Of a DNA stretch of 33,583 nt, positions 1,246-33,538 are shown piece by piece. Location of the stretch: the NCBI RefSeq assembly GCF_001499735.1, contig NZ_LN848257.1, positions 1,267,419 to 1,301,001 of the forward strand, read 5' to 3'. Positions within the stretch are counted from its first letter, which is position 1. Each line of letters starts with the position of its first letter. The stretch comes from Thiocapsa sp. KS1 (GTDB lineage: Bacteria > Pseudomonadota > Gammaproteobacteria > Chromatiales > Chromatiaceae). The translations under genes were made by a program, and so were the position numbers. The notes beneath the pieces are model-generated. The model had not been told where the DNA came from, did not search any database, and worked only from the letters and a program-made list of their open reading frames with translations.

Positions 1246-1333
1246 TTAAACCGCGTCCGCCGCAAAGGTGGCGGACAGGTACCGGACCACGCCCACGGCA
1301 AAACGGCTCATGTCGCGCGCAGACGCGGTTTAA
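1246..1333. repeat. TAAACCGCGTC inverted-repeat element, copy A (ilvN-ilvC)
   Basis: An 88-bp element with arms TTAAACCGCGTC (1246-1257) and GACGCGGTTTAA (1322-1333), a perfect 12-bp inverted repeat. Inside the left arm a second hairpin forms between GTCCGCC (1255-1261) and GGCGGAC (1270-1276). The right end overlaps the ilvN stop codon (1330-1332, TAA on the minus strand). It occupies most of the ilvN-ilvC gap and would be transcribed within the operon mRNA. The rest of the gap (1107-1245) shows no gene. Confidence 0.85.
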
Positions 1334-1821
1334 ACCGCCAAACCCTTGTCGCCGCGCGAGATGCCGGTCGGACCCGAACGGACGACCTCGACGATCAGCC
1401 CCTCCGGAACCGCGTCGATGAAGGCATCCAGCTTCTTGGATGCCCCGGTCAGCTCGATGACATAGCTGGTATCCGTTACATCGATGATCTTGGCGCGGAA
1501 GATCTCGGTCAGGCGCTTGAGCTCCTCGCGGTCCTGCCGCTCGGCGCGCACCTTGATCATCATCATCTCGCGCTCGATGTGCGGGCCCTCGGACAGATCG
1601 AGCAGCTTCACGGTGTCGATCAGTTTATTCAACTGCTTCTTGATCTGCTCGACCACGTCGTCGTTGCCCGTGGTCACCAGGGTCATCCGCGAGAGGGTCG
1701 GATCATCCGTCGGCGCGACGGTCAGCGATTCGATGTTGTAGCCACGGGCGGAGAAGAGCCCTGCAACGCGCGAGAGCGCGCCTGCCTCGTTCTCCAGCAG
1801 CACGGCGATGATATGTCTCAT
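1330..1821 (-). CDS. ilvN: Acetolactate synthase small (regulatory) subunit
   Basis: Regulatory subunit of acetohydroxyacid synthase; it binds IlvB and in this family confers valine feedback inhibition through its N-terminal ACT domain. At 163 residues it has the length of E. coli IlvH and matches it closely: LLENEAGALSRVAGLFSARG (from residue 8), then YNIESLTVAPTDDPTLSRMT, are near-identical ACT-domain signatures. The C-terminal half is the usual small-subunit activation domain. Its ATG lies 31 bp after the ilvB stop, so the two are cotranscribed; the ribosome-binding site is weak (GAGACC). The TAA stop is part of the terminal repeat of element A, so the repeat end has become coding sequence. 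It could equally be called ilvH. Confidence 0.96.
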   Translation of the reverse strand: MRHIIAVLLENEAGALSRVAGLFSARGYNIESLTVAPTDDPTLSRMTLVTTGNDDVVEQIKKQLNKLIDTVKLLDLSEGPHIEREMMMIKVRAERQDREELKRLTEIFRAKIIDVTDTSYVIELTGASKKLDAFIDAVPEGLIVEVVRSGPTGISRGDKGLAV

Positions 1822-1842
1822 GTCGTCAGGTCTCTTTCGCTC

Positions 1843-1856
1843 GGGACGCGGTTTAG
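1843..1856. repeat. Half copy of the TAAACCGCGTC element (ilvB-ilvN)
   Basis: GGACGCGGTTTAG at 1844-1856, preceded by G at 1843, is identical to the right arm of copy B (7574-7586). No partner arm occurs within 100 bp on either side, so this is a solo end. It fills about half of the 31-bp ilvB-ilvN spacer and provides the ilvB stop codon (1853-1855, TAA on the minus strand). Confidence 0.7.
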
Positions 1857-3646
1857 GCCAGCTCGCGATCCGACAGACTCGGTGCCAGATGCATCTCGTG
1901 GTGGCCCTTGCCGCTGGCGATCATCGGATAAACGTTCTCGGTGGGATCCACGATGACATCCATGAACACGAGACGGTTCTTCATGGCGAATGCCTCGGTC
2001 ATGGCGGCCTCCAGGTCCCCCGGCTGGTCGACACGCATGCCGACATGCCCGAAACTCTCGGCGAGCTTCACGAAGTCCGGCAGGGCGTCGACGTAGGAGT
2101 TCGAGTAGCGGCTCTCGTAGAAGAGCTCCTGCCACTGCCGCACCATGCCCATATAGCCGTTGTTGAGCAGGATCACCTTGATGGGCAGCCCGTATTGAAG
2201 GCAGGTGGCCAGCTCCTGGATACACATGAGGATGCTCGCCTCGCCGGAGATACAGGCGACCTGCGCATCCGGAAACGCCAATTGCACGCCCATCGCTGCC
2301 GGAAGGCCGAAGCCCATGGTCCCCAGACCGCCCGAATTGATCCAGCGCCGCGGCTTGTCGAACGGATAAAACTGGGCGGCAAACATCTGGTGCTGCCCCA
2401 CGTCGGAGGTCAAATAGAGATCGCCGTCGGTCACCTTGTAGAGTGTTTCCACCGCGAACTGCGGCTTGATGGCGGCGCTGTTGCGGTCGTAGCGCAAACA
2501 GTCGACCCCCTGCCACTCGGCGATCTTGGCCCACCAATCGGCGACCGCAGGCGCGTCGGAACGCGGAGCCGGGGCCAGTTCTCGGTACAGCTTCAGCATG
2601 TCGGCGAGCACGTTCGCGACCTGTCCGACGATGGGGACATGCACCTTGACGGTCTTGGAGATCGAGGACGGATCCACGTCGACATGGATAATCTTGGCAT
2701 GAGGACAGAAATGCTCGATCTTGCCGGTGACCCGATCATCGAAACGCGCGCCGATGGCGATCAAGACATCCGTCTCGTGCATCGCCATGTTTGCCTCGTA
2801 GGTGCCGTGCATCCCGAGCATGCCGATGAACTGCGGATCGGTCATGGGATAGGCACCGAGCCCCATCAGGGTACTGGTGACGGGAAAGCCGGTCGCACGC
2901 ACGAGCTCGGTCAGTTGGGACGACGCCTCGCCGAGCACCACGCCGCCGCCGGTGTAGAACACCGGCCGCTTGGCCTGGAGGATGAGATCGACGGCCTTGC
3001 GGATCTGCCCGGGATGCCCCTTAAGCACCGGGTTGTAGGAGCGCATCTTGATATCGCGCGGGTATTCGTACGGGATCTTGATGTTCGGATCCGTCACGTC
3101 CTTGGGGATGTCGACCACCACGGGTCCGGGCCGACCGCTCGTCGCGATATAGAAGGCCTTGCGAATGGTCATCGCGAGATCGCGCACGTCCTTGACCAGG
3201 AAGTTGTGCTTCACGCAGGGTCGAGTGATGCCGACCGTGTCGACCTCTTGAAAGGCGTCGCTGCCGATCACGGGGATCGGTACCTGACCGGTCAGGATCA
3301 CCATCGGGATGGAGTCCATGTATGCGGTGGCGATACCCGTGACCGCGTTGGTCGCACCAGGGCCGGACGTCACCAGACAGACACCGCACTTGCCGGTCGC
3401 GCGTGCATAGCCGTCCGCCGCATGCGAGGCACCCTGCTCGTGACGCACCAGGATGTGCTTGACGGACTCCTGCCTGAAGAGTGCGTCGTAGATGTGCAGC
3501 ACGGCACCGCCGGGATAGCCGAAGACGAACTCGACACCCTCGTCGGCAAGGGCCTGGATGACGATCTCGGCCCCGCTCAGCTCGAGACCACGCCGCTCGG
3601 GCCGCCCCGGATCGGCCCCATCGGGTTGCGCTTCAGACAGTGCCAC
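1853..3646 (-). CDS. ilvB: Acetolactate synthase large (catalytic) subunit
   Basis: Thiamine-diphosphate enzyme condensing pyruvate with pyruvate or 2-oxobutyrate, the first common step of branched-chain amino-acid synthesis. It has 597 residues with the three usual domains: N-terminal TPP PYR domain with catalytic Glu (about E70, in VRHEQGASHAADGYARATGK), the central FAD-binding domain, and the C-terminal PP domain. The metal-binding GDG motif reads GEAS at residues 468-471, keeping an acidic ligand as Glu469. The start is GTG, with a good GGAGGT seven bases upstream. About 25 residues precede the conserved LSGAEIVIQAL, a length common in proteobacterial homologues. First gene of ilvBNC. Its stop codon lies in a half copy of the repeat element. 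Identification is secure; ilvI is the alternative name. Confidence 0.96.
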   Translation of the reverse strand: MALSEAQPDGADPGRPERRGLELSGAEIVIQALADEGVEFVFGYPGGAVLHIYDALFRQESVKHILVRHEQGASHAADGYARATGKCGVCLVTSGPGATNAVTGIATAYMDSIPMVILTGQVPIPVIGSDAFQEVDTVGITRPCVKHNFLVKDVRDLAMTIRKAFYIATSGRPGPVVVDIPKDVTDPNIKIPYEYPRDIKMRSYNPVLKGHPGQIRKAVDLILQAKRPVFYTGGGVVLGEASSQLTELVRATGFPVTSTLMGLGAYPMTDPQFIGMLGMHGTYEANMAMHETDVLIAIGARFDDRVTGKIEHFCPHAKIIHVDVDPSSISKTVKVHVPIVGQVANVLADMLKLYRELAPAPRSDAPAVADWWAKIAEWQGVDCLRYDRNSAAIKPQFAVETLYKVTDGDLYLTSDVGQHQMFAAQFYPFDKPRRWINSGGLGTMGFGLPAAMGVQLAFPDAQVACISGEASILMCIQELATCLQYGLPIKVILLNNGYMGMVRQWQELFYESRYSNSYVDALPDFVKLAESFGHVGMRVDQPGDLEAAMTEAFAMKNRLVFMDVIVDPTENVYPMIASGKGHHEMHLAPSLSDRELA

Positions 3647-3692
3647 CTCGGTGACCTCCGATCAGTCCTAGGAAAGGGTTCAAAAGCGGTCG

Positions 3693-3721
3693 AAATTACC
3701 GCGATCGGTGCAGCGGGTCAA
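3693..3721 (-). promoter_or_regulatory. Candidate sigma-70 promoter for ilvBNC
   Basis: On the minus strand TTGACC (plus 3716-3721) is followed after exactly 17 bases by TAATTT (plus 3693-3698), about 46 bases before the ilvB GTG. The -35 is good and the -10 is weak. I saw no leader peptide rich in Val, Leu or Ile and no terminator-antiterminator pair in the leader, so attenuation of the enterobacterial type is not supported here. Confidence 0.4.
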
Positions 3722-3783
3722 GCGAAGTGCCGAACCGCATGCGATCGTGCCCGCTCGGACCCGCCCCGGAAGACCCGAGCGCC

Positions 3784-4839
3784 TCAACGACAACGCGTCG
3801 GGCGCAACCGGCTCAGTCTGGTCGCGGAAAGACCGTAGACGCAGTCATGGATGTCCTGCAGAAAACCCAGCTCGTCCCAGGCATCCTCGGGCCAGCCCCC
3901 CGGCTCGGCGCGACTGCCCAGCGTCAGCTCCCGGAACGCAAGGTCGAATGCTTCGGGGTCTCCCCACACCATGCGCAGGCTTGCCAAGGCGTCCGGAAAG
4001 CGTGACTCCAAGACCGAAACATCGGTGCGCTCGCCGAGCGCGAGGTCTTCCGTCGGCCGCGCGACATGCATCGCGCGCAGCCAGTCCGGGGCGCCCGCAA
4101 AGCTGGACTCGGGATCCTTCCAGACCGGCGGAAGCTGCGCGGTCAGCAGATCGACGAACGCCTTGATCGCGGATGTCGGATGCTCGAATCCGAGGTCGAG
4201 GCCGAACAGCTCGGCCGTGGCGAATCCCTCGACCTTGACCCTCGCGATCGAGCGCACGCGCGCCCTCAATCGGAAACTCGGCAGGCCCGCGCCCCCGTGG
4301 ATCGCCAGACGGATACTCTGGCCTGCATCGTATGCCTCGAAGACGGTCACGCCGAGGTGACCGGTCGCGATCTGCTCGAGCATCTCGCGCATCGCGCCGG
4401 CATCCTCGACCGCAACCTCGAGCTCGCGCACGAGCAAGCCTGCGTCCTGCTCCGAGGAGCCGTCCGCCGCATCGAGCATGGTCAGCAGCTTTTCAAGCCT
4501 CGCTTGGCTTCTCGGCGAGAGGCTCGCGAACCGAACCGCGACCTGATAATGGCCCGAGGCCAAACGTTGCGCCCGGACCACCTCGGCCTCGACCGCAACC
4601 TTCTCATGGCCTCGCCAGGGAAACACCAAACGCAGGGTGCCGGACAGGGCGGCCAGCGGCGCCGCGACGACGAACTGGGCACCACCCCAGGAGATGTCCT
4701 GATTCATGGCGATGAGCGGATCGCCCGATGTCGGCAGATAGACCTGGATCGGGATCCGCACGACGATACGGCGCTGCGTTCGCCGGTTTGCAACCGGAGC
4801 AGTCTGTTCCGGACTCGAATCCGCAGGTTGCTTTGTCAT
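3784..4839 (-). CDS. PilZ domain protein (probable c-di-GMP receptor)
   Basis: A 351-residue protein whose first ~110 residues form a PilZ domain: the arginine cluster RRTQRR (about 19-24) and DISWGG (about 48-53) supply the RxxxR and D/NxSxxG signatures that bind cyclic di-GMP in this family. A second region of similar layout follows (about 150-255, ending FGLDLGFEHPTSAIKAFVDLL) and may be a degenerate second PilZ fold without the arginine motif. The last ~95 residues are unrecognised. There is no signal peptide or membrane segment. The reading frame is open to 5097, but the upstream part is low quality and overlaps the proS promoter; I chose the ATG at 4839 (4857 is possible). The output it controls cannot be told from its neighbours (ilv and proS). 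Confidence 0.82.
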   Translation of the reverse strand: MTKQPADSSPEQTAPVANRRTQRRIVVRIPIQVYLPTSGDPLIAMNQDISWGGAQFVVAAPLAALSGTLRLVFPWRGHEKVAVEAEVVRAQRLASGHYQVAVRFASLSPRSQARLEKLLTMLDAADGSSEQDAGLLVRELEVAVEDAGAMREMLEQIATGHLGVTVFEAYDAGQSIRLAIHGGAGLPSFRLRARVRSIARVKVEGFATAELFGLDLGFEHPTSAIKAFVDLLTAQLPPVWKDPESSFAGAPDWLRAMHVARPTEDLALGERTDVSVLESRFPDALASLRMVWGDPEAFDLAFRELTLGSRAEPGGWPEDAWDELGFLQDIHDCVYGLSATRLSRLRPTRCR

Positions 4840-4894
4840 CTCGCACTCGGATCGCATCGGCGCCGGGGCTGTCGGTGCCGGCTGGATTTCACCC

Positions 4895-4900
4895 AGTATA
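4895..4900 (-). promoter_or_regulatory. Possible -10 box for the PilZ gene
   Basis: TATACT on the minus strand (5 of 6 consensus bases), 56 bases before the chosen PilZ start. No convincing -35 at 16-18 bp. It lies in the 189-bp divergent region shared with proS. Confidence 0.3.
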
Positions 4901-4968
4901 TCGGGGCCTTCGAAGTCTCGCGAAACCCCGGCTCGACAGACGTCGCGCCCGACCGGACGATCGCGCGG

Positions 4969-4997
4969 TTGTTTCGATACCGGTAGACCAATACACT
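4969..4997 (+). promoter_or_regulatory. Candidate sigma-70 promoter for proS
   Basis: TTGTTT (4969-4974), 17-bp spacer, TACACT (4992-4997), 32 bases before the proS ATG. Each hexamer matches consensus at four positions, and the spacing is ideal. It faces away from the PilZ gene. Confidence 0.4.
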
Positions 4998-5028
4998 TCG
5001 CGCCTTTACGTTGCCGATAGTCCTGCCG

Positions 5029-6750
5029 ATGCGCACCTCCCAGTTTCCGATCCAGACCCTCAAAGAGACCCCCGCCGACGCGGAGATCGCCAGTCACCGG
5101 CTGATGCTGCGCGCCGGCATGATCCGCAAGCTGGCGGCCGGACTCTACACGTGGTTACCGATGGGGCTTCGCGTCCTGCGCAAGGTCGAAGGCATTGTCC
5201 GCGATGAAATGGACCGCGCCGGTGCCTTGGAGGTTTCCATGCCCGCGGTGCAGCCCGCCGAGCTGTGGCAGGAATCCGGCCGCTGGGACCAGTACGGCCC
5301 GGAGCTGCTGCGTCTGCGCGATCGCCATCAACGGGACTTCTGCTTCGGCCCGACGCACGAGGAGATCATCACGGACCTCGCACGCAACGAGCTGAAGAGC
5401 TACAAACAGCTGCCGATCAACTTCTACCAGATCCAGACCAAGTTCCGCGACGAGATCCGGCCACGCTTCGGCGTGATGCGCGCCCGCGAGTTCCTGATGA
5501 AGGATGCCTATTCCTTCCATCTCGACGATGCCTCGCTCGAAGACACCTACCGGCAGATGCACGCGGCCTACAGCCGCATCTTCAGCCGCTGCGGGCTCGA
5601 TTTCCGCCCGGTGCAGGCCGACACCGGCAGCATCGGCGGCAACGCCTCGCATGAGTTCCATGTGCTCGCGGACTCGGGCGAAGACGCCATCGCATTCTCC
5701 GACAGCAGCGACTACGCGGCCAACGTCGAGCTGGCCGAGGCCCTCGCCTTGGCCGACGCCGCCCCGGCACCGCAGGAGACCGCGCGCCTGATCGACACGC
5801 CGAACGCACGCACCATCGCGGATCTGGTCGAGCAGTTCGCTCAGCCGATCGAGCGCACGGTCAAGACCCTGGTGGTCGCGGCCTCCGCCGAGAGCGCGTC
5901 CGCGCTGATCGCCCTGCTGGTGCGCGGTGATCACGAGCTCAACGCCATCAAGGCCGAGAAGCTGCCCGGGGTCGCCGCGCCGCTGCGCATGGCAACCGAG
6001 GCCGAGATCCGCGAGGCGATCGGCGCCGGTCCCGGATCGCTGGGGCCGAAGGATCTGCCGATCCCCTGCATCGTGGATCGCACCGTCGCGGTCACCGGCG
6101 ATTTCAGCGCCGGCGCGAATCAGGACGGCAAGCATTGGTTCGGTCTGAACTGGGGCCGTGATCTGCCGCTTCCCGAGGTCGCCGATCTGCGCAACGTCAT
6201 CGACGGCGACCCGAGCCCGGATGGCGAGGGCCATCTGAAGATCGCGCGCGGGATCGAGGTCGGACACATCTTCCAGCTCGGGCGTAAATACAGCCAGGCC
6301 ATGAAGGCCAACGTGCTCGGCGAGGACGGCCGTGCGACGACCCTCACCATGGGCTGTTACGGCATCGGGGTGTCGCGCGTGGTCGCCGCGGCGATCGAGC
6401 AGCATCACGACGAGCGCGGTATCTCTTGGCCGGCGCCGATCGCGCCCTTCCAGGTCGCACTTCTGCCGATGAAGCTCGGCAAGTCATACCGTGTCCGCGA
6501 GGCGACGGAGCAGCTTTACGCGGACCTGAAGCAGGTCGGCATCGACGTCCTGCTCGACGATCGCGACGCCCGCCCCGGCGTCATGTTCGCCGACATGGAG
6601 CTGATCGGCATCCCGCATCGCATCGTCGTCGGCGACAAGTCGCTCGACGACGGTCAGGTCGAGTACAAGGGCCGCAACGACAGCGAGACGCAGCTTATCC
6701 CGATCGAGGAGATCGTCGGCTGGCTGTCGGCGCGGCTTCGGTCGGACTGA
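5029..6750 (+). CDS. proS: Prolyl-tRNA synthetase (bacterial type, with editing domain)
   Basis: Charges tRNA-Pro with proline; cytoplasmic. The 573 residues are close in length and sequence to E. coli ProS, starting [20 protein letters not shown]. Class II motifs are visible: [18 protein letters not shown] and [19 protein letters not shown] (motif 2), and the C-terminal [14 protein letters not shown] (motif 3). The inserted YbaK-type editing domain that hydrolyses Ala-tRNA-Pro spans about residues 225-405 ([10 protein letters not shown] onward), so this is the prokaryote-type rather than the archaeal-type enzyme. The C-terminal anticodon-binding domain ends [12 protein letters not shown] at 5011 would add six residues; the ATG at 5029 matches the family start. 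The gene is followed by a heptamer array starting six bases after the stop. Confidence 0.97.
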
Positions 6751-6755
6751 TTCAG

Positions 6756-6811
6756 GCCGCCAGCCGCCAGCCGCCAGCCGCCAGCCGCCAGCCGCCAGCC
6801 GCCAGCCGCCA
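6756..6811. repeat. Heptanucleotide array, 8 perfect copies of GCCGCCA
   Basis: Eight uninterrupted 7-bp units starting six bases after the proS stop. On the minus strand the unit reads GGCTGGC, one base from the GGCTGGA unit of the array at 25966-26028. Because 3 x 7 = 21, the array stays open in all frames and yields spurious ORFs with a repeated GGWRLAA peptide on the minus strand. It lies in the 231-bp proS-fabA gap, which otherwise holds only the next array. Confidence 0.95.
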
Positions 6812-6890
6812 GCGATCCTCGCGCGCTCGCACGGGCAACGCAACACCCAACGCCTCGCGTGCAATCCATACCGCCCCGCCACCTCGAACG

Positions 6891-6939
6891 GAGGCAGGAG
6901 GCAGGAGGCAGGAAGCTGGAGGCTGGAAGCTGGAAGCCA
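6891..6939. repeat. Degenerate heptanucleotide array, 7 copies of GARGCWG
   Basis: Three GAGGCAG units, then GAAGCTG, GAGGCTG, GAAGCTG and GAAGCCA. The unit is a permutation of GGCTGGA with changes and runs in the opposite orientation to the array at 6756-6811, so the two face each other across a 79-bp spacer upstream of fabA. The degeneracy suggests it is older than the perfect neighbouring array. Confidence 0.9.
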
Positions 6940-6981
6940 CCAAACACTGGAACCGCAAGACACACAGGACCTCACCCCAAA

Positions 6982-7497
6982 ATGACTAAAGAAGCCTCCT
7001 TCGACCGCGACGCGCTCCTCGCTTGCGGACACGGCGAGATGTTCGGTCCGGGCAATGCCCAACTGCCCGTGCCGAACATGCTGATGATGGATCGCGTGCT
7101 GCGCATCGCCGATTTCGGCGGCGCCAACGGCAAGGGCGAGATCCTGGCCGAGCTGGATATCAAGCCGGAGCTCTGGTTCTTTCAGTGCCATTTTCCCGGC
7201 GACCCGGTCATGCCCGGCTGTCTGGGTTTGGATGCACTCTGGCAGCTTGTCGGCTTCTATCTCGCGTGGATCGGCAATCCCGGGCACGGGCGTGCGCTCG
7301 GTGTGGGCGAGGTCAAGTTCACCGGTCAGGTGCTCCCGACCGCCAGCAAGGTGACCTATCACATCGACATGAAGCGGGTGATCTCGCGCAAGCTGGTGCT
7401 CGGCATCGGCGACGGCGTGGTGCAGGTGGACGGGCGCACCATCTATACGGCCAAGGATCTGCGGGTGGGGCTCTTTACCTCGACCGAGGGCTTCTAA
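6982..7497 (+). CDS. fabA: 3-hydroxydecanoyl-ACP dehydratase/isomerase
   Basis: Dehydrates 3-hydroxydecanoyl-ACP and isomerises the trans-2 to the cis-3 double bond, starting anaerobic unsaturated fatty-acid synthesis; cytoplasmic hot-dog-fold homodimer. The 171 residues are close to E. coli FabA (172). The catalytic pair is in place: His70 in [20 protein letters not shown] and Asp84 in the same stretch. PNMLMMDRV and [18 protein letters not shown] are family hallmarks. The open frame extends upstream through the heptamer array to 6859, but that part is repeat-derived; the ATG at 6982 gives the normal N-terminus. The ribosome-binding site is poor (AGGA, 12 bases away). fabB, a frequent partner, is not in the window. 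Confidence 0.97.
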
Positions 7498-7499
7498 GA

Positions 7500-7586
7500 C
7501 TAAACCGCGTCCAGAGCGAGATGCTCACTTTCGAGTGAGCTCGACGTTTGGTGCATCCACGACCCTTAGCGGGGGACGCGGTTTAG
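7500..7586. repeat. TAAACCGCGTC inverted-repeat element, copy B (after fabA)
   Basis: An 87-bp element with perfect 13-bp arms CTAAACCGCGTCC (7500-7512) and GGACGCGGTTTAG (7574-7586). Inside is a clean hairpin, GCTCACT (7523-7529) and AGTGAGC (7534-7540), closing a TTCG tetraloop. It starts two bases after the fabA stop codon. Confidence 0.88.
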
Positions 7587-7598
7587 GATCGGAAAAGG

Positions 7599-7649
7599 AT
7601 TTTTCGGTTTTGACTTGGCTGAGATCGGCTTCGTTGATCTCCGAAAAAT
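7599..7649. other. Nested hairpin, possible bidirectional terminator of fabA and crtA-like gene
   Basis: ATTTTTCGG (7599-7607) pairs with CCGAAAAAT (7641-7649), and inside it GAGATC (7621-7626) pairs with GATCTC (7636-7641). It lies between the converging fabA and CrtA-like genes. The A/T-rich outer stem gives T-rich strands in both directions, but the loop is long for a standard terminator. Confidence 0.4.
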
Positions 7650-7658
7650 TCCATACCC

Positions 7659-7689
7659 GTAGGTCGGGCAAAGCGTAGCGTACCCAACA
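7659..7689. repeat. REP-like palindromic sequence
   Basis: GTAGGTCGGGC, then AAAGCGTAGCG, then TACCCAACA. This imperfect palindrome resembles a short intergenic repeat I recall from many proteobacterial genomes (GGTGGGC-AAAGCG-...-GCCCACC type). It is the only copy in the window, and the assignment rests on resemblance. Confidence 0.45.
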
Positions 7690-7702
7690 CACCGTCGTCG
7701 TA

Positions 7703-8458: not shown

Positions 8459-8599
8459 GATCACCCCTCGCTCGAGCATCGAAACGACACGCCGATTACC
8501 CTGGGAACCCTCTCGGACGGACGCCCCAACCGCGTCCTACACAACATCGAAGCGTGCTATGTTCGCGGAACGATCCACGCACCCGGAGCAGGTCGCGCC

Positions 8600-24334: not shown

Positions 24335-24495
24335 GGCTCAAGTGTCGATGCGGGCCTGTTGAAGACGAGGACCGGGCGCGGCCGGACGCATTGCGCCCCG
24401 ATCGACCGGCCATCTATCCTCTAGCTCCGAGCCATCATGCTGGAAGCCTCTTCGCCGATGCAACTCACCGCGATTCGGCTGCGAGAACACTGTTG

Positions 24496-25311: not shown

Positions 25312-25321
25312 GGACCCCGCG

Positions 25322-25768: not shown

Positions 25769-25794
25769 CCCCAAAGGTTAAAGGCTAGAGGTTA

Positions 25795-25960: not shown

Positions 25961-25965
25961 TTAAA

Positions 25966-26028
25966 GGCTGGAGGCTGGAGGCTGGAGGCTGGAGGCTGGA
26001 GGCTGGAGGCTGGAGGCTGGAGGCTGGA
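25966..26028. repeat. Heptanucleotide array, 9 perfect copies of GGCTGGA
   Basis: Nine perfect tandem 7-bp units, followed by the degenerate unit GGCTAAC. It shares its unit, with one change, with the minus-strand reading of the proS-fabA array. It lies about 70 bp upstream of the aceE promoter candidate. Confidence 0.95.
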
Positions 26029-26093
26029 GGCTAACACCCTCGCCCGGCTATGCATTGACCACCCAAATTCTTACCATTGCAAACCTGGAGCGC

Positions 26094-26102
26094 TGATATA
26101 AT
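26094..26102 (+). promoter_or_regulatory. Extended -10 promoter for the pyruvate dehydrogenase operon
   Basis: TGATATAAT: a TG-N extension followed by a perfect TATAAT (26097-26102), 47 bases before the aceE ATG. The -35 region at 17 bp is weak, as allowed for extended -10 promoters. No PdhR-like operator was recognised. Confidence 0.55.
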
Positions 26103-26149
26103 CCGCGCTTTGCCCGTGCCGACCGCTTCGACCGCTTCCGGGAAACATC

Positions 26150-28804
26150 ATGACCAACAAGCCCGATATCGATCCCCAAGAGACACAGGAATGGCTCGAT
26201 TCGCTCGATGCCGTGCTCGAGAACGAAGGCGTCGAGCGCGCCCACTTTTTGCTCGAGCGACTGATCGACAAGGCGCGCCGCTCGGGGGCTTATCTCCCGT
26301 TCACCGCCAACACCGCCTACGTCAACACCATTCCGGTGCAGCAGCAGGAGCGCTTCCCCGGCGATCGCGCCATGGAACGCCGCATCCGCTCCTTCGTGCG
26401 TTGGAACGCGATGGCGATGGTGGTGCAGGCCAACCGGCTCTCTACCGAGCTCGGCGGCCACATCTCGAGCTTTGCCTCCTCCGCCACCCTGGTCGACGTG
26501 GGCTACAACCACTTCTTCCGTGCGCGCGACAAGGATCACGGCGGCGATCTCATCTTCTTCCAGGGCCACGCGGCGCCCGGCATCTATGCCCGCGCGTTTC
26601 TGGAGGGACGCATCAGCGAGGAGCAGCTTTACAACTTCCGCCAGGAGGTCGACGGCAACGGCCTGTCCTCCTATCCGCACCCTTGGTTGATGCCCAACTT
26701 CTGGCAGTTCCCGACCGTCTCGATGGGGCTCGGACCGCTGATGGCCATCTATCAGGCGCGCTTCATGCGCTATTTGAACGACCGCGGGCTGGTCAACACG
26801 AGCGAGCGTAAGGTCTGGGCCTTCCTCGGCGACGGCGAGATGGACGAGCCCGAATCGCTCGGCGCGATCTCCTTGGCGGCACGCGAGCGTCTCGACAACC
26901 TGGTCTTCGTGGTCAACTGCAACCTGCAGCGTCTCGACGGTCCGGTACGCGGCAACGGCAAGATCATCCAGGAGCTCGAAGCGGTCTTCCGCGGCGCAGG
27001 CTGGAACGTCGTCAAGGTCGTCTGGGGCAGCTATTGGGACCCCTTGTTCGCCCGCGACAAGCAGGGTTTGCTCCTCAAACGCATGGAGGAATGTGTCGAC
27101 GGCGACTACCAGGCCTACAAGGCCAAGGGCGGCGCCTACACCCGCGAGCATTTCTTCGGCAAGTATCCCGAGCTCAAGGAGATGGTCGCCAACATGACCG
27201 ACGAGGATATCTGGCGTCTGAACCGCGGCGGCCATGACCCGGCCAAGGTCTATGCCGCCTACGACGCGGCCATGCGCATGAACGGCAAGCCCACGGTGAT
27301 CCTGGCGAAGACCGTGAAGGGTTACGGCATGGGTGTCGCCGGCGAGGGTATGAACATCACCCACTCGCAGAAGAAGATGGGCGAGACGCATCTGAAAGCC
27401 TTCCGCGACCGCTTCAATATCCCGATCTCGGACGACCAGATCGGCGCCGCGCCCTTCTACAAACCGCCGCAGGACAGCCCCGAGATGCAGTACATGCACG
27501 AGGTCCGCGAGCGGCTCGGCGGCTTCCTGCCGCTGCGTCGCGACGACGCCGCGGTGCTGCCGATCCCCGAGCTGGATGCCTTCAAGCCGCTCCTGGAAGG
27601 CAGCGGCGACAAGGAGATGTCGACCACCATGGCGATGGTGCGCATCCTCACGATCCTGGTGCGCGACAAGGCGATCGGCAAGTACCTGGTCCCCATCGTT
27701 CCGGACGAGGCGCGCACCTTCGGCATGGAGGGCATGTTCCGCCAGCTCGGCATCTATTCCTCGATCGGCCAGCTCTACGAGCCGGTCGATGCCGATCAGG
27801 TCATGTACTACCGCGAGGACAAGAAGGGACAGATCCTGCAGGAAGGCATCAACGAAGCAGGCGCCATGTCGTCCTGGATCGCGGCGGCCACCGCCTATGC
27901 GAATCACGGCCAGAGCATGATCCCTTTCTACATCTACTATTCCATGTTCGGGTTCCAGCGCATCGGGGATCTGGCCTGGGCGGCGGGCGACATGCAGGCC
28001 CGCGGCTTCCTGATCGGCGGCACCGCCGGACGCACCACGCTCGCCGGCGAGGGCCTCCAGCATCAGGACGGCCACAGCATGGTGGTCGCGTCGACCATCC
28101 CGAACTGTGTCGCCTACGACCCGGCCTATGCCTACGAGCTCGCCGTCATCGTCCAGGACGGCCTGCGCCGGATGTATCGAGAGAAGGAGAACGTCTTCTA
28201 CTACGTCACGGCGATGAACGAGAACTACGTTCAGCCGGCGTTGCCCGAGGGCGCCGAGGCCGGGATCCTCAAAGGCATGTATCCGGTCCATCAGGGCGAG
28301 GAGCACACCCACCGCGTCCAGCTGCTCGGTGCCGGAACCATCCTGCGCGAGGTCTTGGCCGCAGCCGAGCTGCTCGCCAAGGACTTCAACGTCGGCGCCG
28401 ATGTCTGGAGTGTCACCAGCTTCAACGAGCTGCGGCGTGAAGGCATCGACGTGGAGCGCTGGAACATGCTCCACCCCGATCAGCCCCAGCGCACCACCTA
28501 TGTCGAGGAGCAGCTCGCCGGGACCCAAGGCCCGATCATCGCCGCCACCGACTATATCCGGACCTACGCCGACCAGATCCGCCCCTACATCCCGCGACAC
28601 TACCTGGTGCTCGGGACCGACGGCTTCGGGCGGAGCGACATGCGCAGCCAGCTGCGGAAATTCTTCGAGGTCAATCGTTACTACATCGTCGTCGCGGCGC
28701 TGAAGGCATTGGCGGACGAGGGCGAGATCCCGACCGCGACGGTCTCCGAGGCGATTCGGAAATACCGCATCGACCCGGAAAAACCCAACCCGGTAACGAT
28801 CTGA
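26150..28804 (+). CDS. aceE: Pyruvate dehydrogenase E1 component (homodimeric)
   Basis: Thiamine-diphosphate E1 that decarboxylates pyruvate and acetylates the lipoyl groups of AceF; part of the cytoplasmic pyruvate dehydrogenase complex. The 884 residues are close to E. coli AceE (887). The TPP/Mg motif begins at about G227-D228 (FLGDGEMDEPESLGAISLA) and continues to VNCNLQRLDGPVRGNGKIIQ. FFQGHAAPGIYARAFLEGR and LAGEGLQHQDGHS are other strong signatures. It is the first gene of aceE-aceF-lpdA on the plus strand. Its TGA stop lies in CTGAACCGCG, an extra copy of the repeat-element terminus placed directly before copy C. The 210 bp to aceF are filled by two repeat elements. Identification is secure. 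Confidence 0.97.
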   Translation: MTNKPDIDPQETQEWLDSLDAVLENEGVERAHFLLERLIDKARRSGAYLPFTANTAYVNTIPVQQQERFPGDRAMERRIRSFVRWNAMAMVVQANRLSTELGGHISSFASSATLVDVGYNHFFRARDKDHGGDLIFFQGHAAPGIYARAFLEGRISEEQLYNFRQEVDGNGLSSYPHPWLMPNFWQFPTVSMGLGPLMAIYQARFMRYLNDRGLVNTSERKVWAFLGDGEMDEPESLGAISLAARERLDNLVFVVNCNLQRLDGPVRGNGKIIQELEAVFRGAGWNVVKVVWGSYWDPLFARDKQGLLLKRMEECVDGDYQAYKAKGGAYTREHFFGKYPELKEMVANMTDEDIWRLNRGGHDPAKVYAAYDAAMRMNGKPTVILAKTVKGYGMGVAGEGMNITHSQKKMGETHLKAFRDRFNIPISDDQIGAAPFYKPPQDSPEMQYMHEVRERLGGFLPLRRDDAAVLPIPELDAFKPLLEGSGDKEMSTTMAMVRILTILVRDKAIGKYLVPIVPDEARTFGMEGMFRQLGIYSSIGQLYEPVDADQVMYYREDKKGQILQEGINEAGAMSSWIAAATAYANHGQSMIPFYIYYSMFGFQRIGDLAWAAGDMQARGFLIGGTAGRTTLAGEGLQHQDGHSMVVASTIPNCVAYDPAYAYELAVIVQDGLRRMYREKENVFYYVTAMNENYVQPALPEGAEAGILKGMYPVHQGEEHTHRVQLLGAGTILREVLAAAELLAKDFNVGADVWSVTSFNELRREGIDVERWNMLHPDQPQRTTYVEEQLAGTQGPIIAATDYIRTYADQIRPYIPRHYLVLGTDGFGRSDMRSQLRKFFEVNRYYIVVAALKALADEGEIPTATVSEAIRKYRIDPEKPNPVTI

Positions 28805-28810
28805 ACCGCG

Positions 28811-28898
28811 CTGAACCGCGTCCGTCATCCCATGCGGCGATACGGCAAGTCGACCGACGACAAAGCACCTCAAGAAGGCCTCGGTCGACGCGGTTCAG
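28811..28898. repeat. TAAACCGCGTC inverted-repeat element, copy C (aceE-aceF, first)
   Basis: An 88-bp element with arms CTGAACCGCGTC (28811-28822) and GACGCGGTTCAG (28887-28898), a perfect 12-bp inverted repeat. Compared with the other copies both arms carry TGAACC in place of TAAACC, so pairing is kept. The extra unit CTGAACCGCG directly precedes it (28801-28810) and holds the aceE stop. Confidence 0.85.
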
Positions 28899-28916
28899 GA
28901 CATCTAAAATCTATGG

Positions 28917-29001
28917 CTAAACCGCGTCCGGGCCGAAACGCCTGGTTCAGCCGGGCCGCCCACCACAGGGAGCTGTGGTGATCGCCCCGGACGCGGTTTA
29001 G
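28917..29001. repeat. TAAACCGCGTC inverted-repeat element, copy D (aceE-aceF, second)
   Basis: An 85-bp element with arms CTAAACCGCGTCCGGG (28917-28932) and CCCCGGACGCGGTTTAG (28985-29001), which pair over 16 bp. Inside, CACCACAG (28961-28968) and CTGTGGTG (28973-28980) form an 8-bp stem around GGAG. The right end abuts the aceF ribosome-binding site GGGAGGA (29001-29007). Confidence 0.88.
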
Positions 29002-29013
29002 GGAGGACAGAGC

Positions 29014-30720
29014 GTGGCAACCGTCGAAGACATTCTGCTGCCGGATATCGGGGACTTCTCGGACGTCGAGGTGATCGAGATCCTCGTGGCGCCCGGCGAC
29101 CGGATCGAGGCCGAGCAATCGATCCTCAGCCTGGAGAGCGACAAGGCGACCATCGAGATCCCCTCGCCGCTGGCGGGGGTGATCCGAGAGCTGAAGATCA
29201 AGATCGGCGATCGGGTCAGCCGGGGGGATCTCCTGATGACGCTGGAGACCGAGGGGATGCCGTCTGCGGAGGCGCAAACCGGGGAAGCGCAAGCCGAGTC
29301 GGGCGCCGCCCGCGCGCCATCCGGTCCAGCGGTGCCGGCTGCGACAACGACTCAATCGTCGAAGGCACCACCTCCCCGACCGGCGAGCACCGGCCAGACC
29401 ATCTCGGTGGTCCTGCCGGACATCGGCGATTTCGCGGATATCCCGGTGGTCGAGGTGCTGATCGCACCGGGCGATCGCATCGAGGTGGATCAGTCGCTTC
29501 TCACGCTCGAGAGCGAGAAGGCAACCATGGAGATCCCTTCGCCCAACGCAGGCATTGTCGAGGAGCTGGCCGTCAAGGTCGGAGACAGCCTGAATCAGGG
29601 CGATCTCATCCTGACGCTGCGCACCGACGGCGAGGTCGACAGCGGCGAGCCGATCAAGACGTCCGACCCGATGGCTGCCAACACGGCCGAAGAGCTCGAG
29701 GCACCGCCGGGACCGGCATCGAGTGCCAAGCGCGTGCCCGGCGAATCGGAGCGGCGGCCGGCCCCGGTACTGCCGCGTCCCGAGGACATGGCGGCGATCG
29801 CCAAGGGCCGCAAGGCCCACGCCAGCCCGGCGGTGCGACGCTTCGCCCGCGAGCTCGGCGTGGACCTGACCTTCGTCAAGGGGTCGGGACCGAAGGCTCG
29901 CGTGCTCAAGGACGATGTGCAGGGCTTCGTCAAGCAGGCGCTCGCGCAGGGGGCCCCGACCGCGGCCGGAGCCGCCCTGCCCTTCGCGCTGCCTGCCGCG
30001 CCCGAGATCGATTTCGCCAAGTTCGGCCCGGTCGAGGTCGCCGAGCTCTCGCGCATCAAGAAGCTCAGCGGCCGGCATCTGCATCGCAGCTGGCTCTCAG
30101 TGCCGCATGTCACCCAGTTCGACGAGGCGGACATCACCTCGCTGGAAGACTTCCGCAAGGGACAAAAGGCACAAGCCGCCGAAAAGGGCATCAAGCTGAC
30201 CTTCGTCCCCTTCCTGCTCAAGGCGGTCGCCACCGCCCTGAGCCGGATGCCGATCCTCAAGGCATCGTTGACGGCGGACGGCGAGGGTCTGGTGCTCAAG
30301 CACTTCACCCATATCGGTGTGGCGGTCGATACGCCGCAGGGTCTGGTTGTCCCGGTTGTGCGCGACGTCGACAAAAAGGGCATCTATGCCCTGGCGGCGG
30401 AGCTGTCCGAGCTCGGCGAAAAGGCACGCACGGGCAAGCTGCTGCCCGGCGACATGCAGGGCGGCTGCTTCACCATCTCCAGCCTCGGCGGCATCGGCGG
30501 AACCGCCTTCACGCCGATCGTCAACGCCCCGGAGGTCGCCATCCTCGGGGTGTCGCGCGCGACGACCAAGCCGTTCTGGAACGGGCAGACCTTCGAGCCG
30601 CGCCTGATGCTGCCTCTGTCGCTGTCCTACGATCACCGCGTGGTCGACGGGGCGGACGGGGCGCGCTTCACCAGCCTGCTCGGCGATCTGCTCGGCGATC
30701 TTCGACAAGTGCTGCTGTAG
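29014..30720 (+). CDS. aceF: Pyruvate dehydrogenase E2, dihydrolipoyl acetyltransferase
   Basis: Core subunit of the pyruvate dehydrogenase complex, transferring acetyl from lipoyl to CoA. The 568 residues contain two N-terminal lipoyl domains (about 1-80 and 127-205) with lipoylated K44 (ESDKATIEIP) and K169 (ESEKATMEIPSP), joined by Ala/Pro/Thr-rich linkers. A subunit-binding domain follows (about 266-310, GRKAHASPAVRRFAREL), then the catalytic domain ending SYDHRVVDGADGARF with H541 and D545. E. coli has three lipoyl domains; two plus one on E3 is seen here. The start is GTG with GGGAGGA at good spacing, immediately after repeat copy D. Followed by two hairpins and lpdA. Confidence 0.96.
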   Translation: MATVEDILLPDIGDFSDVEVIEILVAPGDRIEAEQSILSLESDKATIEIPSPLAGVIRELKIKIGDRVSRGDLLMTLETEGMPSAEAQTGEAQAESGAARAPSGPAVPAATTTQSSKAPPPRPASTGQTISVVLPDIGDFADIPVVEVLIAPGDRIEVDQSLLTLESEKATMEIPSPNAGIVEELAVKVGDSLNQGDLILTLRTDGEVDSGEPIKTSDPMAANTAEELEAPPGPASSAKRVPGESERRPAPVLPRPEDMAAIAKGRKAHASPAVRRFARELGVDLTFVKGSGPKARVLKDDVQGFVKQALAQGAPTAAGAALPFALPAAPEIDFAKFGPVEVAELSRIKKLSGRHLHRSWLSVPHVTQFDEADITSLEDFRKGQKAQAAEKGIKLTFVPFLLKAVATALSRMPILKASLTADGEGLVLKHFTHIGVAVDTPQGLVVPVVRDVDKKGIYALAAELSELGEKARTGKLLPGDMQGGCFTISSLGGIGGTAFTPIVNAPEVAILGVSRATTKPFWNGQTFEPRLMLPLSLSYDHRVVDGADGARFTSLLGDLLGDLRQVLL

Positions 30721-30726
30721 TCGGCA

Positions 30727-30759
30727 CGGGAGCGCGAGCCCCGGCAGCCCGCGCTCCCG
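30727..30759 (+). other. Strong hairpin just after aceF
   Basis: CGGGAGCGCG (30727-30736) pairs perfectly with CGCGCTCCCG (30750-30759) around a 13-base loop, six bases after the aceF stop. No T-run follows, so it is more likely an mRNA-stabilising or processing structure than an intrinsic terminator. Confidence 0.65.
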
Positions 30760-30776
30760 CACCCAATGCACTGAAT

Positions 30777-30803
30777 AGGGCCGAGGGCTTCGCCTCGTGC
30801 CCT
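30777..30803 (+). other. Second hairpin in the aceF-lpdA spacer
   Basis: AGGGC-CGAGG (30777-30786) pairs with CCTCG-T-GCCCT (30793-30803) with one bulged T around GCTTCG. It is followed by GCTTTCGTCT, only weakly T-rich, so partial termination before lpdA is possible but not shown. Confidence 0.5.
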
Positions 30804-30876
30804 GCTTTCGTCTAGGATTGGGCGCTATCCTCCCATCATCGCGCGGCCACAGCGGCCCCAAGAGAAGAAGCACACC

Positions 30877-32607
30877 ATGAACGACACCAGTGGCGACACC
30901 ATCGAGATCAGGGTCCCGGACATCGGCGATTTCAAAGATGTGGAGGTCATCGAGGTCTTGGTCTCCCCGGGCGACTCGGTGATCGAAGAGGCTTCGCTGA
31001 TTACACTCGAAAGCGACAAGGCCAGCATGGAGATCCCGGCTCCGCGTGCGGGGGTTGTTCGGTCCGTCGAGGTCTCGGTCGGAGATCGGATCTCGGAGGG
31101 CACACGCATCCTGACGCTCGAGGTCACGGATACGGGAGCCGAGCGCCCGTCGTCGGACTCGGAAACGCGGGGGAGCACCGCAGCGTCCGGCACCGCGCAG
31201 GAGATCGTCACCCAGGTCGTGGTGCTCGGCGCCGGTCCCGGCGGCTACACAGCCGCCTTCCGCGCCGCCGATCTCGGCAAAAAGGTCGTCCTCATCGAGC
31301 GTTACGACACCCTCGGCGGCGTCTGTCTGAACGTCGGCTGCATCCCCTCCAAAGCATTGCTGCACACCGCAGCCATCCTCGAAGAGGTCAAGACCCTGGG
31401 CACCATGGGCGTGACCTTCGGCGAGCCGACGATCGATCTGGACAAGATGCGTGCCGGCAAGGAGCAGGTGGTCGCCAAGCTCACCGGCGGTCTCGCAGCG
31501 ATGGCGAAGCAGCGTGGAGTCAAGGTGGTCCAGGGAACCGGTCGCTTCGAGGCACCCAACCGCATCGCGGTGGCGACACCCGCCGGCCCGGTGCGGATCC
31601 TGTTCGACCACTGCATCATCGCCTGCGGCTCTGCACCCATGAAGATCCCGGGCTTTCCGCACGACGACCCGCGCGTGATGGACTCCACCGACGCGCTCGA
31701 GATCGCGGACATCCCGAACCGTCTTCTGATCGTCGGCGGCGGCATCATCGGGCTCGAGATGGCGAGCGTCTACAGTGCGCTCGGCTCGACGGTCGAGGTC
31801 GTGGAGATGAAGGATCAGTTGATGCCGGGTGCGGACATCGATCTGGTGCGCGCGCTCGAAAAGGTCATCAAGAAGCGCTACAGCACCATCCGACTCGAAA
31901 CCAAGGTCGCGCAGATGAGCGCCACGGCCGAGGGCATCAAGGTCGTCTTCGAGGGTAAGACGCCCGGCGAAGAGGTCTACGACAAGGTCCTGGTCGCCAT
32001 CGGCCGGCGCCCGAACGGCAAGCTCGTCAACGCCGAGGCCGCCGGCGTGAAGGTCGACCAGCACGGGTTCATCAAGGTCGACGACCACATGCGCACCAAC
32101 GTGCCGAACATCTTCGCCATCGGCGACGTTGTCGGCGGGCCGATGCTCGCCCACAAGGCCACTCACGAGGCGAAGGTCGCGGCCGAGGTCATCGCCGGGA
32201 TGCCCGCACTCTTCGATCCCATGACCATCCCCTCGGTCGCCTATACGGATCCGGAGGTCGCCTGGATGGGCCTGACCGAGACCGATGCCAAGGCCAAGGG
32301 CATCGCCTACGAGAAGGGCGTCTTCCCCTGGGCGGCGAGCGGCCGCGCACTCGGCATCCATCGCGACGAAGGTCTGACCAAGCTGCTCTTCGATCCGGAG
32401 ACCAAGCGCATCCTGGGCGCGGGCATCGTCGGCCCGAACGCCGGCGAGCTGATCGGCGAGACGGTTCTGGCACTGGAGATGGGCGCGGACATGGAAGACA
32501 TCGGCCTGACCATCCATCCGCATCCGACCCTGAACGAGACCATCGGACTTGCCGCCGAGATGGCGCACGGCTCGATCACCGATCTGCTGCCGCCGAAAAA
32601 GCGCTGA
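30877..32607 (+). CDS. lpdA: Dihydrolipoyl dehydrogenase (E3) with N-terminal lipoyl domain
   Basis: FAD enzyme that reoxidises the dihydrolipoyl groups of AceF with NAD+. The 576 residues comprise an N-terminal lipoyl domain (about 8-85, K48 in ESDKASMEIP), a Ser/Thr/Ala linker (~87-108) and a full E3: FAD motif VVLGAGPGGYTAAFRAADLG, redox-active C150/C155 in GGVCLNVGCIPSK, NAD motif LLIVGGGIIGLEMAS, and the dimer-interface catalytic H549 in HPHPTLNETIG. An E3 carrying its own lipoyl domain is known in several beta- and gammaproteobacterial pdh operons. AGAGAAGAAG precedes the ATG. It is the last gene of the operon; a short TCGCG/CGCGA hairpin lies in the 54-bp convergent gap after it. Confidence 0.97.
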   Translation: MNDTSGDTIEIRVPDIGDFKDVEVIEVLVSPGDSVIEEASLITLESDKASMEIPAPRAGVVRSVEVSVGDRISEGTRILTLEVTDTGAERPSSDSETRGSTAASGTAQEIVTQVVVLGAGPGGYTAAFRAADLGKKVVLIERYDTLGGVCLNVGCIPSKALLHTAAILEEVKTLGTMGVTFGEPTIDLDKMRAGKEQVVAKLTGGLAAMAKQRGVKVVQGTGRFEAPNRIAVATPAGPVRILFDHCIIACGSAPMKIPGFPHDDPRVMDSTDALEIADIPNRLLIVGGGIIGLEMASVYSALGSTVEVVEMKDQLMPGADIDLVRALEKVIKKRYSTIRLETKVAQMSATAEGIKVVFEGKTPGEEVYDKVLVAIGRRPNGKLVNAEAAGVKVDQHGFIKVDDHMRTNVPNIFAIGDVVGGPMLAHKATHEAKVAAEVIAGMPALFDPMTIPSVAYTDPEVAWMGLTETDAKAKGIAYEKGVFPWAASGRALGIHRDEGLTKLLFDPETKRILGAGIVGPNAGELIGETVLALEMGADMEDIGLTIHPHPTLNETIGLAAEMAHGSITDLLPPKKR

Positions 32608-32661
32608 TCCGGAGAGATCGCGCCGGGCCCGCGACAGCCGGAACGAGCGGCGGATGAGGGC

Positions 32662-32943
32662 TCACTGCGTCACACCGCAAAACTCCACGCAACTCTGCAG
32701 GGTCGGGAACGGCACCCGACCCTCGCAGCCCCCGTAGGTGAACGCCTTGCAGCGGTCGTCTCGGTAGTCGTAATAGAACCTGACCTGATTGGAGCGGCAA
32801 GGGCCGGGGTCGGGTTTGACGACGCAGGCAACGGGCAGCTCTTCACGTACGCCGCCACTCGAGGCACCGCCGCATCCCGCTAGACCGGCCAGGAGAATCC
32901 CGAGCACCGGCACGCGCAACCGGCGCAGCCAGTGGACACTCAT
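32662..32943 (-). CDS. Kunitz/BPTI-type protease-inhibitor lipoprotein
   Basis: A 93-residue lipoprotein: signal peptide with lipobox LAGC (lipidated Cys24), a short Gly/Ser linker, then a complete Kunitz domain at about 40-89. Its six Cys are 40, 49, 65, 73, 85 and 89, with spacings 8-15-7-11-3, against 8-15-7-12-3 in bovine trypsin inhibitor. FYYDYRDDRCKAFTYGGCEG matches the family core. The residue after the second Cys (P1 position) is Arg50, which in this family predicts inhibition of trypsin-like serine proteases. The longer open frame upstream (to 33183) is antisense noise; the ATG at 32943 overlaps the cupin stop as ATGA, so the pair is coupled. The membrane in which it is anchored is not determined. 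Kunitz domains are uncommon in bacteria. Confidence 0.85.
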   Translation of the reverse strand: MSVHWLRRLRVPVLGILLAGLAGCGGASSGGVREELPVACVVKPDPGPCRSNQVRFYYDYRDDRCKAFTYGGCEGRVPFPTLQSCVEFCGVTQ

Positions 32944-33446
32944 CGAGACCGGTTCCGCGCCGCCGCTCGGACCTCCGCGCCCTTCGGGGCATGCTTCCAC
33001 CAATCGCGATGTCGAAACTCGCTCCCGTCCTTCGCCATCATCCGGATAGATCCGCCACGCCGGAAGCCCCAGCCTTTGATCCTCGGACCATGCAGGAAGA
33101 GCGTCCAAGCCGGCACGCCCGCACGCAAGACCACGCGGTGATAGTCCGAGCCACGCAGCCGGTTGAGCTGCCCGGGGGCGCAAAAGCGCACCCGGGTCCG
33201 TTCGGGGTCGGTGTGGAGACCGCGAATCTCGTCATATCCGCCCGCGAGCACCAGGCTCACGGCATGTCCCCAGGGGTGATCGTGGAGCCCGCGATCCGGA
33301 TCCGAATCGACGAAACGGTGGAGATAGAGGTGCCAGCCGAAGGCGCCGAGGAGGTAATAGCGTTCGAGGTAGGGCTCGCCCTGCTCACCTTCGATGAGAC
33401 GACAGGGTCGGCGCGCGCTGATCCATTCGAGCAGTGTTTCGATCAC
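32940..33446 (-). CDS. Small cupin-fold protein
   Basis: A 168-residue soluble protein with a single cupin-like barrel: RPCRLIEGEQGEPYLERYYL, then LHDHPWGHAVSLVLAGGYDEI (H55 and H57 in HDHPW as likely metal ligands), FCAPGQLNRLRGSDYHRVVL and WTLFLHGPRIKGWGFRR. Proteins of this layout occur in bacteria and phages; no reaction is known to me. I start it at the GTG at 33446, which gives the short N-terminus expected before RRPCRLI; a TTG at 33470, inside repeat copy E and preceded by GAGGAA, is the alternative. It is followed by the Kunitz gene with ATGA overlap, so both probably come from one message. Confidence 0.72.
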   Translation of the reverse strand: MIETLLEWISARRPCRLIEGEQGEPYLERYYLLGAFGWHLYLHRFVDSDPDRGLHDHPWGHAVSLVLAGGYDEIRGLHTDPERTRVRFCAPGQLNRLRGSDYHRVVLRAGVPAWTLFLHGPRIKGWGFRRGGSIRMMAKDGSEFRHRDWWKHAPKGAEVRAAARNRSR

Positions 33447-33449
33447 GCC

Positions 33450-33538
33450 TTTAAACCGCGTCCGTTGCAACAGGCACTTTCCTCACGCGGACTCCGCGTC
33501 GCACTGACCCACTTGCGCCGCAGTAGACGCGGTTTAAA
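33450..33538. repeat. TAAACCGCGTC inverted-repeat element, copy E (upstream of cupin gene)
   Basis: An 89-bp element with perfect 13-bp arms TTTAAACCGCGTC (33450-33462) and GACGCGGTTTAAA (33526-33538). Inside, ACGCGG (33485-33490) and CCGCGT (33494-33499) form a short hairpin. It ends three bases before the proposed cupin start, so it would form the 5' leader of that message. The last 45 bases of the window hold nothing recognisable. Confidence 0.88.

Follow-up and report, generated by a model that had tools for sequence, protein, structure and literature searches.

The window analysed here, by which we mean the whole stretch of 33,583 nucleotides at positions 1267419-1301001 of a 5.07-Mb contig of Thiocapsa sp. 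KS1 (G000), contains five copies of a short element with inverted ends. A preliminary description, made from the letters of the sequence alone, had placed these copies and proposed that they form a family; the inverted ends were found to be perfect over at least the first 12 bases and the lengths to be 85-89 bp, as it had stated. The copies, and the linker between two of them, are as follows:

1246..1333, no strand assigned: copy A, a single hairpin unit, TTAAACCGCGTC...GACGCGGTTTAA
7500..7586, no strand assigned: copy B, a single unit of a recent T-type subfamily, by its sequence and interior matches
28811..28898, no strand assigned: copy C, first unit of a pair, CTGAACCGCGTC...GACGCGGTTCAG
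28899..28916, no strand assigned: linker of the C/D pair, within GGACATCTAAAATCTATGGC, with 20 bp between the TRAACC arms
28917..29001, no strand assigned: copy D, the second member of this pair, whose end lies 12 bp ahead of the GTG start of 29014-30720
33450..33538, no strand assigned: copy E, a single unit, TTTAAACCGCGTC...GACGCGGTTTAAA, intergenic by the gene calls used

With its right-terminal TTA (1330-1332), copy A forms the TAA stop of the gene at 1330-1821 on the minus strand, an acetolactate synthase small subunit gene (Pfam PF10369 match). A FabA-domain gene ends at 7497 with a TAA stop, and the arm of copy B begins 3 bp past it. The C/D pair lies between a pyruvate-dehydrogenase E1-like gene (26150-28804) and the next called gene (29014-30720); the 10-bp end of copy C, CTGAACCGCG, is tandemly duplicated at 28801-28820, immediately before copy C, and the TGA with which the E1-like gene stops (28802-28804) falls within the first of the two repeats. 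In both arms of copy C a G-C pair replaces A-T, while its orthologues (site 2) read A/A and in one case G/A. Single ends with at most two mismatches numbered 16 in the window, where 6.98 were expected; 1 of 100 shuffles reached that count. An end-like match at 1845-1855, on the stop of the minus-strand ORF 1853-3646, was left out of the count of copies because G007, a congener poor in the family, has a similar sequence there. The window also holds a 173-aa ORF at 32662-33183 (minus strand) with a match to Kunitz_BPTI (PF00014, E = 1.8e-12), a domain unusual in bacteria; this ORF overlaps the called ORF 32940-33446.

When 470 elements were compared, copies A, C and D had no interior relative besides their orthologues and copy E matched only at the borderline, passing a lenient threshold, whereas copy B, interior included, was 87-99% identical to many copies in same-genus genomes, among the matches listed. 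The earlier statement that the interiors do not align therefore stands for A, C and D, is borderline for E and fails for B. Its corollary that this is not the pattern of a young MITE family is wrong or at least incomplete, since recent subfamilies copy their interiors and young MITE-like copies thus exist too.

Family size and host range

The pattern AACCGCGTC-N45..75-GACGCGGTT occurs 96 times in the 10.38-Mb genome of KS1 and the reversed pattern not at all, so the pairing of the ends is not a product of chance, and the scan of this genome and its relatives bears out the proposed family. Exact-arm copies were found in 18 of 142 genomes searched, KS1 included: seven same-genus genomes carry 127-319 copies each, two genomes of other genera carry 112 (G042) and 56 (G028), eight further genomes carry 1-2 each, and the remainder have none; the reversed control matched once across all 142 genomes, in G073. 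Carriers named among the matches listed (at least 112 stretches) are Thiocapsa, Thiocystis, Thiobaca, Lamprocystis, a Chromatiaceae bin and Thiorhodococcus minor. Three congeners are poor in the family, with one exact-arm copy in G006 and none in G007 or G009, and a looser census of these genomes gave 1 hairpin in 120 kb, 0 in 43 kb and 0 in 60 kb, respectively.

In a census of 1.6 Mb from four genomes, at loci not picked by their arms, hairpins numbered 9 in G000, 55 in G004, 64 in G010 and 48 in G001, with two matches to the reversed control in all four genomes together. The 400 kb fetched from G000 thus held 9 hairpins, compared with 48-64 in the other three. The assembly of G000 measures 10.38 Mb, compared with 3.3-6.1 Mb in congeners.

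Single hairpins and two-hairpin composites

The mobile unit takes two forms: a single hairpin of ~80-85 bp (AACCGCGYC...GRCGCGGTT), or a ~190-bp composite in which an A-rich linker connects two hairpins that differ from each other. The ~87-bp unit that had been described is real; it is also incomplete, being often half of a 193-bp two-hairpin composite. Among 311 hairpins in the fetched loci, a total in which two overlapping loci are counted twice, close neighbours lie mostly 17-24 bp apart. These form 93 pairs, at loci most of which were chosen by exact TAAACCGCGTC arms: 73 combine a C-type hairpin (arm TAAACCGCGCC) with a T-type hairpin (arm TAAACCGCGTC), 18 are T-T and 2 are C-C. The 73 C/T pairs align as one 193-position consensus consisting of C-type hairpin, A-rich linker and T-type hairpin, and the flanks outside them do not align.

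The inverted ends are perfect or near-perfect and consist of TRAACCGCGYC paired across ~60 bp. Many copies start AACCGCGTCC(A/G)G.GCG...ATGC, so that the weak shared subterminal pattern suspected earlier is real. Folding of the interior barely exceeded that of shuffled sequences (mean z of -0.36 to -0.66 versus -0.19), and it was set aside as a conserved feature. The interiors at site B are of a recent type in KS1, of another type in G003, G004, G005, G008 and G010, and diverged in G002; in G001 this site holds a 190-bp pair followed by the apparent right end of an older copy. Such differences between genomes, together with conserved ends around a variable interior of near-constant length, would be expected of an integron attC-like or other site-specific recombination site, yet we regard this explanation as very improbable: the family ends depart from the attC core rules, the copies are dispersed singly or in pairs and are not arrayed as cassettes, and an inserted copy has TA on each side.

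Insertion and target site

At three sites where filled and empty forms could be compared, TA is present once when the site is empty and on both sides when it is filled. At the first, a 190-bp pair in G010 faces empty sequences in G001, L023 and G000, of which the empty G001 site reads GGGCAT-TA-GTC. At the second, another G010 element was compared with an empty site in G000, and at the third, filled L078 was compared with empty L018, the left TA now being CA. Other empty-site comparisons were not clean: L023, set against G001 and G010, had AA at the place where TA was expected, and G010 48314, L070, L044, L179 and others had diverged or lost a flank. Insertion was thus found to be precise and accompanied by TA duplication at three sites, the first in three comparison sequences and the third with one base changed. 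The target is YTAR, with C or T before TA and A or G after it, and the other flank positions show no motif. The preliminary description had noticed neither the duplication of TA nor the placement on stop codons described below.

Seating on stop codons

Gene ends were taken from a simple, crude codon-usage gene caller, which called 1118 genes in the 1.6 Mb of four genomes. This sequence contains 131 composites, 3 of them mostly inside called genes and 128 intergenic, and in 65 of the 128 the terminal TAA or TGA at one end or more is the stop codon of the neighbouring gene. Of 151 flanking gene 3' ends, 70 fall at position -3, where the element provides the stop with its first three bases (54 TAA, 16 TGA). 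Insertion at YTAR would duplicate TA and, because the unit begins AACC, insertion into a YTAA or YTAG stop would rebuild TAA at that same codon and leave the host protein unchanged. Homologues (at least 55% identity, with an alignment reaching the last 25 residues) support this: where the homologue has no element end at its stop, 32 of 41 rows share the position of the stop and the other 9 are off by 1 to 23 codons, in a set of rows that repeats genes (8 are the copy-A site and 6 the copy-B site) and in which 3 have an element 3 bp farther on; where the homologue also has an element end at the stop, 51 of 52 rows stop at the same codon. Gene truncation as the source of element-formed stops is ruled out for those 32 of 41 rows.

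Occupancy of YTAR sites by recent copies was 44 of 212 at stop codons and 14 of 45 at 1-12 bp after them, compared with 3 of 135 at 13-60 bp and 28 of 1453 elsewhere (31 of 1588 beyond 12 bp), and the contrast between stops and sites beyond 12 bp gave p ~1e-23 by Fisher's test, uncorrected for shared ancestry. Stop codons and the next 12 bp are therefore enriched ~tenfold over other intergenic YTAR sites already in recent copies. When all copies were considered, 4/46 stop-codon YTAR sites were occupied in G000, 19/68 in G004, 22/64 in G010 and 20/55 in G001, so that about a third are taken in the copy-rich stretches (28-36% in the last three genomes); the corresponding figures for 1-12 bp after the stop were 2/6, 7/14, 10/17 and 1/10, and YTAR sites elsewhere were occupied at 0.2-4.4% per genome. 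At loci of other genera, selected because they hold an element, Thiobaca gave 7/17 at stops, 4/22 at 13-60 bp and 9/74 elsewhere, a weaker contrast than in the Thiocapsa census, and Thiocystis, Lamprocystis and PL23b together gave 11/30, 2/11 and 9/163. With orthologous sites counted once (n = 108), 52 elements sit at stops, 17 within 12 bp and 39 at other positions. In the youngest class (at least 95% interior identity), 12 of 28 composites are at stops.

Either end of a pair may occupy the stop (C-type 14, T-type 12, unclear 2), and a directional terminator was discarded on this ground. Among single units one end was favoured by 14 to 5, with 47 single elements not orientable. The site of copy A carries a clear element in KS1 and seven other genomes of the genus (eight in total), and no element was seen there in G006 and G007. 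In G009, which lacks exact-arm copies, the site holds a decayed hairpin-like look-alike of 91 bp (TGAACCGCGCC / TGAGCCGCATC; L166); the copy-A site may predate the burst in the genus.

Arms that tend to change together

Classified by interior, 176 hairpins comprised 54 without a relative (orphans) and 122 recent ones. At two variable arm positions picked post hoc, orphans showed 28 changes matched in both arms and 5 unmatched, whereas recent hairpins showed 3 matched and 14 unmatched (p ~5e-6 for the contrast); over all scored arm positions the matched and unmatched counts were 36 and 36 in orphans and 7 and 64 in recent copies. Part of the matching in orphans may be inherited old variants, and the census detects only arms near the consensus. 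Between orthologues, one-sided arm differences (162 rows) outnumbered two-sided ones (19 rows), repeats included in both counts, and matched changes that had arisen in place were seen at sites 2, 4, 8 and 10. Orthologues were 0.95 identical in the arms versus 0.80 in the interior, a difference that is only a hint, given an aligner that favours gaps, rows that repeat genomes and flanks that include coding DNA. Statistically, then, the interior drifts after insertion while both arms tend to change together, which agrees with the earlier suggestion of an old family with recognisable ends.

In line with proposals made for ERIC and REP, a transcribed hairpin at the 3' end of a gene may influence how stable the mRNA is or how translation terminates, and selection on such an RNA stem would keep the arms paired; alternatively, arm-templated repair might keep the arms alike. 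The data do not tell these two apart, wobble pairs not being significantly favoured (12 GU to 6 AC in orphans, 25 to 24 in recent copies). That pairing is kept by template-switch (quasi-palindrome) correction at replication and not by selection, in a family that is otherwise selfish DNA, is possible, though we lean against it. Matching changes that arose in place in both arms, such as TAAAACGCGTC at site B in G004 and the change in copy C, are what such correction would produce, as is the matching of the outermost flanking bases (44 of 54 orphans, 78 of 122 recent copies); against it, one-sided differences are common between orthologues, and the arms of old copies stay near the consensus, beyond mere pairing, an argument that is weak because the census finds only near-consensus arms.

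The concentration at gene ends and the behaviour of the arms could also reflect a domesticated structural RNA or 3'-end element under positive selection, its mobility incidental and its stop seating mostly selected after insertion. This would account for the covariation of arms in copies whose interior is past recognition, for the retention of the copy-A site in eight genomes, for the preference of single units for one end and for the fall in occupancy beyond 12 bp, which resembles the distance of <16 nt given in PMC12306157 for the influence of REPs on translation. We think it rather unlikely nevertheless: the youngest copies are already biased toward stops (12/28), pairs have no preferred end, the interiors give no clear folding signal, and G006, G007 and G009 live with 0-1 exact-arm copies.

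Search for a transposase partner

A transposase with the same termini was not encountered among 107 loci checked, drawn from 2 to 10 genomes according to family. None of 30 PF01797 loci checked out of 88 (with matches in all 10 genomes searched) was flanked by family ends in inverted order, nor was any of 30 of 35 PF13358, 30 of 95 PF01609 or 17 of 17 PF07592 loci, some of which are cut by contig ends; PF13586 gave zero matches. IS200/IS605-type, IS630-type, DDE_Tnp_1, ISAzo13 and DDE_Tnp_1_2 partners were each considered and rejected, no checked locus being bounded by family ends. Solo ends 110-6000 bp apart formed 83 pairs, mostly weak, and the best one supported by a profile (L239/L240, G010 C1 4239857-4240990) proved to be not an autonomous copy but a hairpin element apparently split by ~1 kb containing a group II intron match (RF02005, 149.8 bits).

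Three further associations were observed near transposase genes. A TTGAACCGCGTC hairpin lies ~1.3 kb from Y1_Tnp genes, on one side, at L143, L152 and L154, apparently one orthologous site in three genomes. At L314 (G001 C1 2499587) a hairpin pair is close to one of four equal-scoring DDE_Tnp_1 copies and not to the other three. At L344 (G010 C1 5733713) TGAACCG recurs at multiples of 61 bp around an ISAzo13-type copy, in the manner of a CRISPR array.

These results bear on whether the copies are REP/BIME or REPIN-like repeats moved by a RAYT (an IS200/IS605-type Y1 transposase) through single-stranded DNA with no target duplication, which we judge improbable. Several features are compatible with it: palindromic units lie between genes by the hundred, dimers are frequent and their spacer is conserved, stop codons are near as in E. 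coli REPs (PMC12306157, in part), and all 10 genomes searched have Y1_Tnp matches. With an overlap of TA only, a duplication-free insertion of a TA-ended unit looks identical at a single site. However, a single TA in the empty site that is found on either side of the inserted copy fits duplication, the family ends lack GTAG and pair across ~60 bp, 0 of the 30 examined PF01797 loci are flanked by family ends, and Y1_Tnp is present also in the family-poor G006, G007 and G009. The element may instead be moved in trans by a DDE transposase whose IS was lost or not sampled.

Relation to known repeat families

ERIC, RUP and NEMIS are the nearest known kind, ERIC being the closest, and overlap of ERIC with stop codons was reportedly described by De Gregorio et al. 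in 2005. According to the consulted part of PMC2229807, ERIC (also IRU or RU-1) is a small non-coding MITE of 127 bp with TA ends, 7 contiguous terminal pairs, target duplication and an RNA hairpin, and in Yersinia it is linked to regulation of upstream mRNA. Like ERIC of Enterobacteriaceae, the Chromatiaceae family is a small MITE with TA ends, target duplication and a hairpin; it was set apart by the length and ends given for ERIC in that portion of PMC2229807, having 12-pair arms, an 85-bp unit, a 193-bp two-hairpin composite and a YTAR target. The same source, to the same extent, describes RUP (Streptococcus pneumoniae) and NEMIS/Correia (Neisseria) as MITEs of ~107-155 bp with TA ends and ties RUP to IS630-Spn1 through its ends, whereas no IS with matching ends occurred among the loci checked here; its available text does not mention stop-codon seating for RUP or NEMIS/Correia, a feature present in the Chromatiaceae family.

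REP, BIME and REPIN repeats, as covered in parts of PMC3733652 and PMC12306157, are palindromic and of high copy number, form dimers with 20-100-bp spacers, show complementary stem changes and lie near stop codons; known REPs measure 20-40 bp, their stems being 5-13 bp and their loops 2-20 bp long (PMC3733652, in part). The present family shares high copy number, palindromic and dimeric form, complementary stem changes and proximity to stops with them, GTAG- and CGTC-tagged families included, but its arms are ~60 bp apart and its insertion fits TA duplication; nor does it carry a REP-type tag, its ends being TRAACCGCGYC with CGTC inside each arm and not at the foot of a short hairpin. The TAACTGA repeats of marine Beggiatoaceae, short direct repeats by the title of PMC4679880, are likewise abundant intergenic repeats of sulfur bacteria, but the Chromatiaceae family has inverted ends and a variable interior. 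The window gave no Rfam match above the gathering score, and one composite (L045) gave just six matches against Rfam, all far under gathering scores. No matching description was found in the open-licence literature, among the matches listed. The repeats make up a large MITE-like family that is new but belongs to a known kind, and that stands out by its unusual two-hairpin form and by its strong and quantified placement on stop codons.

Interpretation

Taken as a whole, the observations are probably best explained by non-autonomous, MITE-like repeats of some Chromatiaceae that move as one hairpin or as a two-hairpin composite, insert at YTAR with TA duplication, rebuild the stop codon, concentrate at gene ends and have arms that tend to change together. 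The concentration may arise because insertion favours gene ends and because copies there cost little or are retained. More tentatively, and with some doubt on our part, the element might be actively directed to stop codons, reading gene ends, rebuilding the stop with its own first bases and then being maintained as an RNA hairpin; the gene end would perhaps be sensed through the terminating ribosome, a 3'-end R-loop or another mark within the stop-proximal 12 bp.

Under the MITE-like reading, landing on stop codons while leaving the protein intact makes this repeat a clean natural example of a mobile element that uses a harmless niche, and its hundreds of datable insertions allow insertion bias and selection at gene ends to be separated. 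Another possibility is that the family provides phototrophic sulfur bacteria with 3' hairpins throughout the genome.
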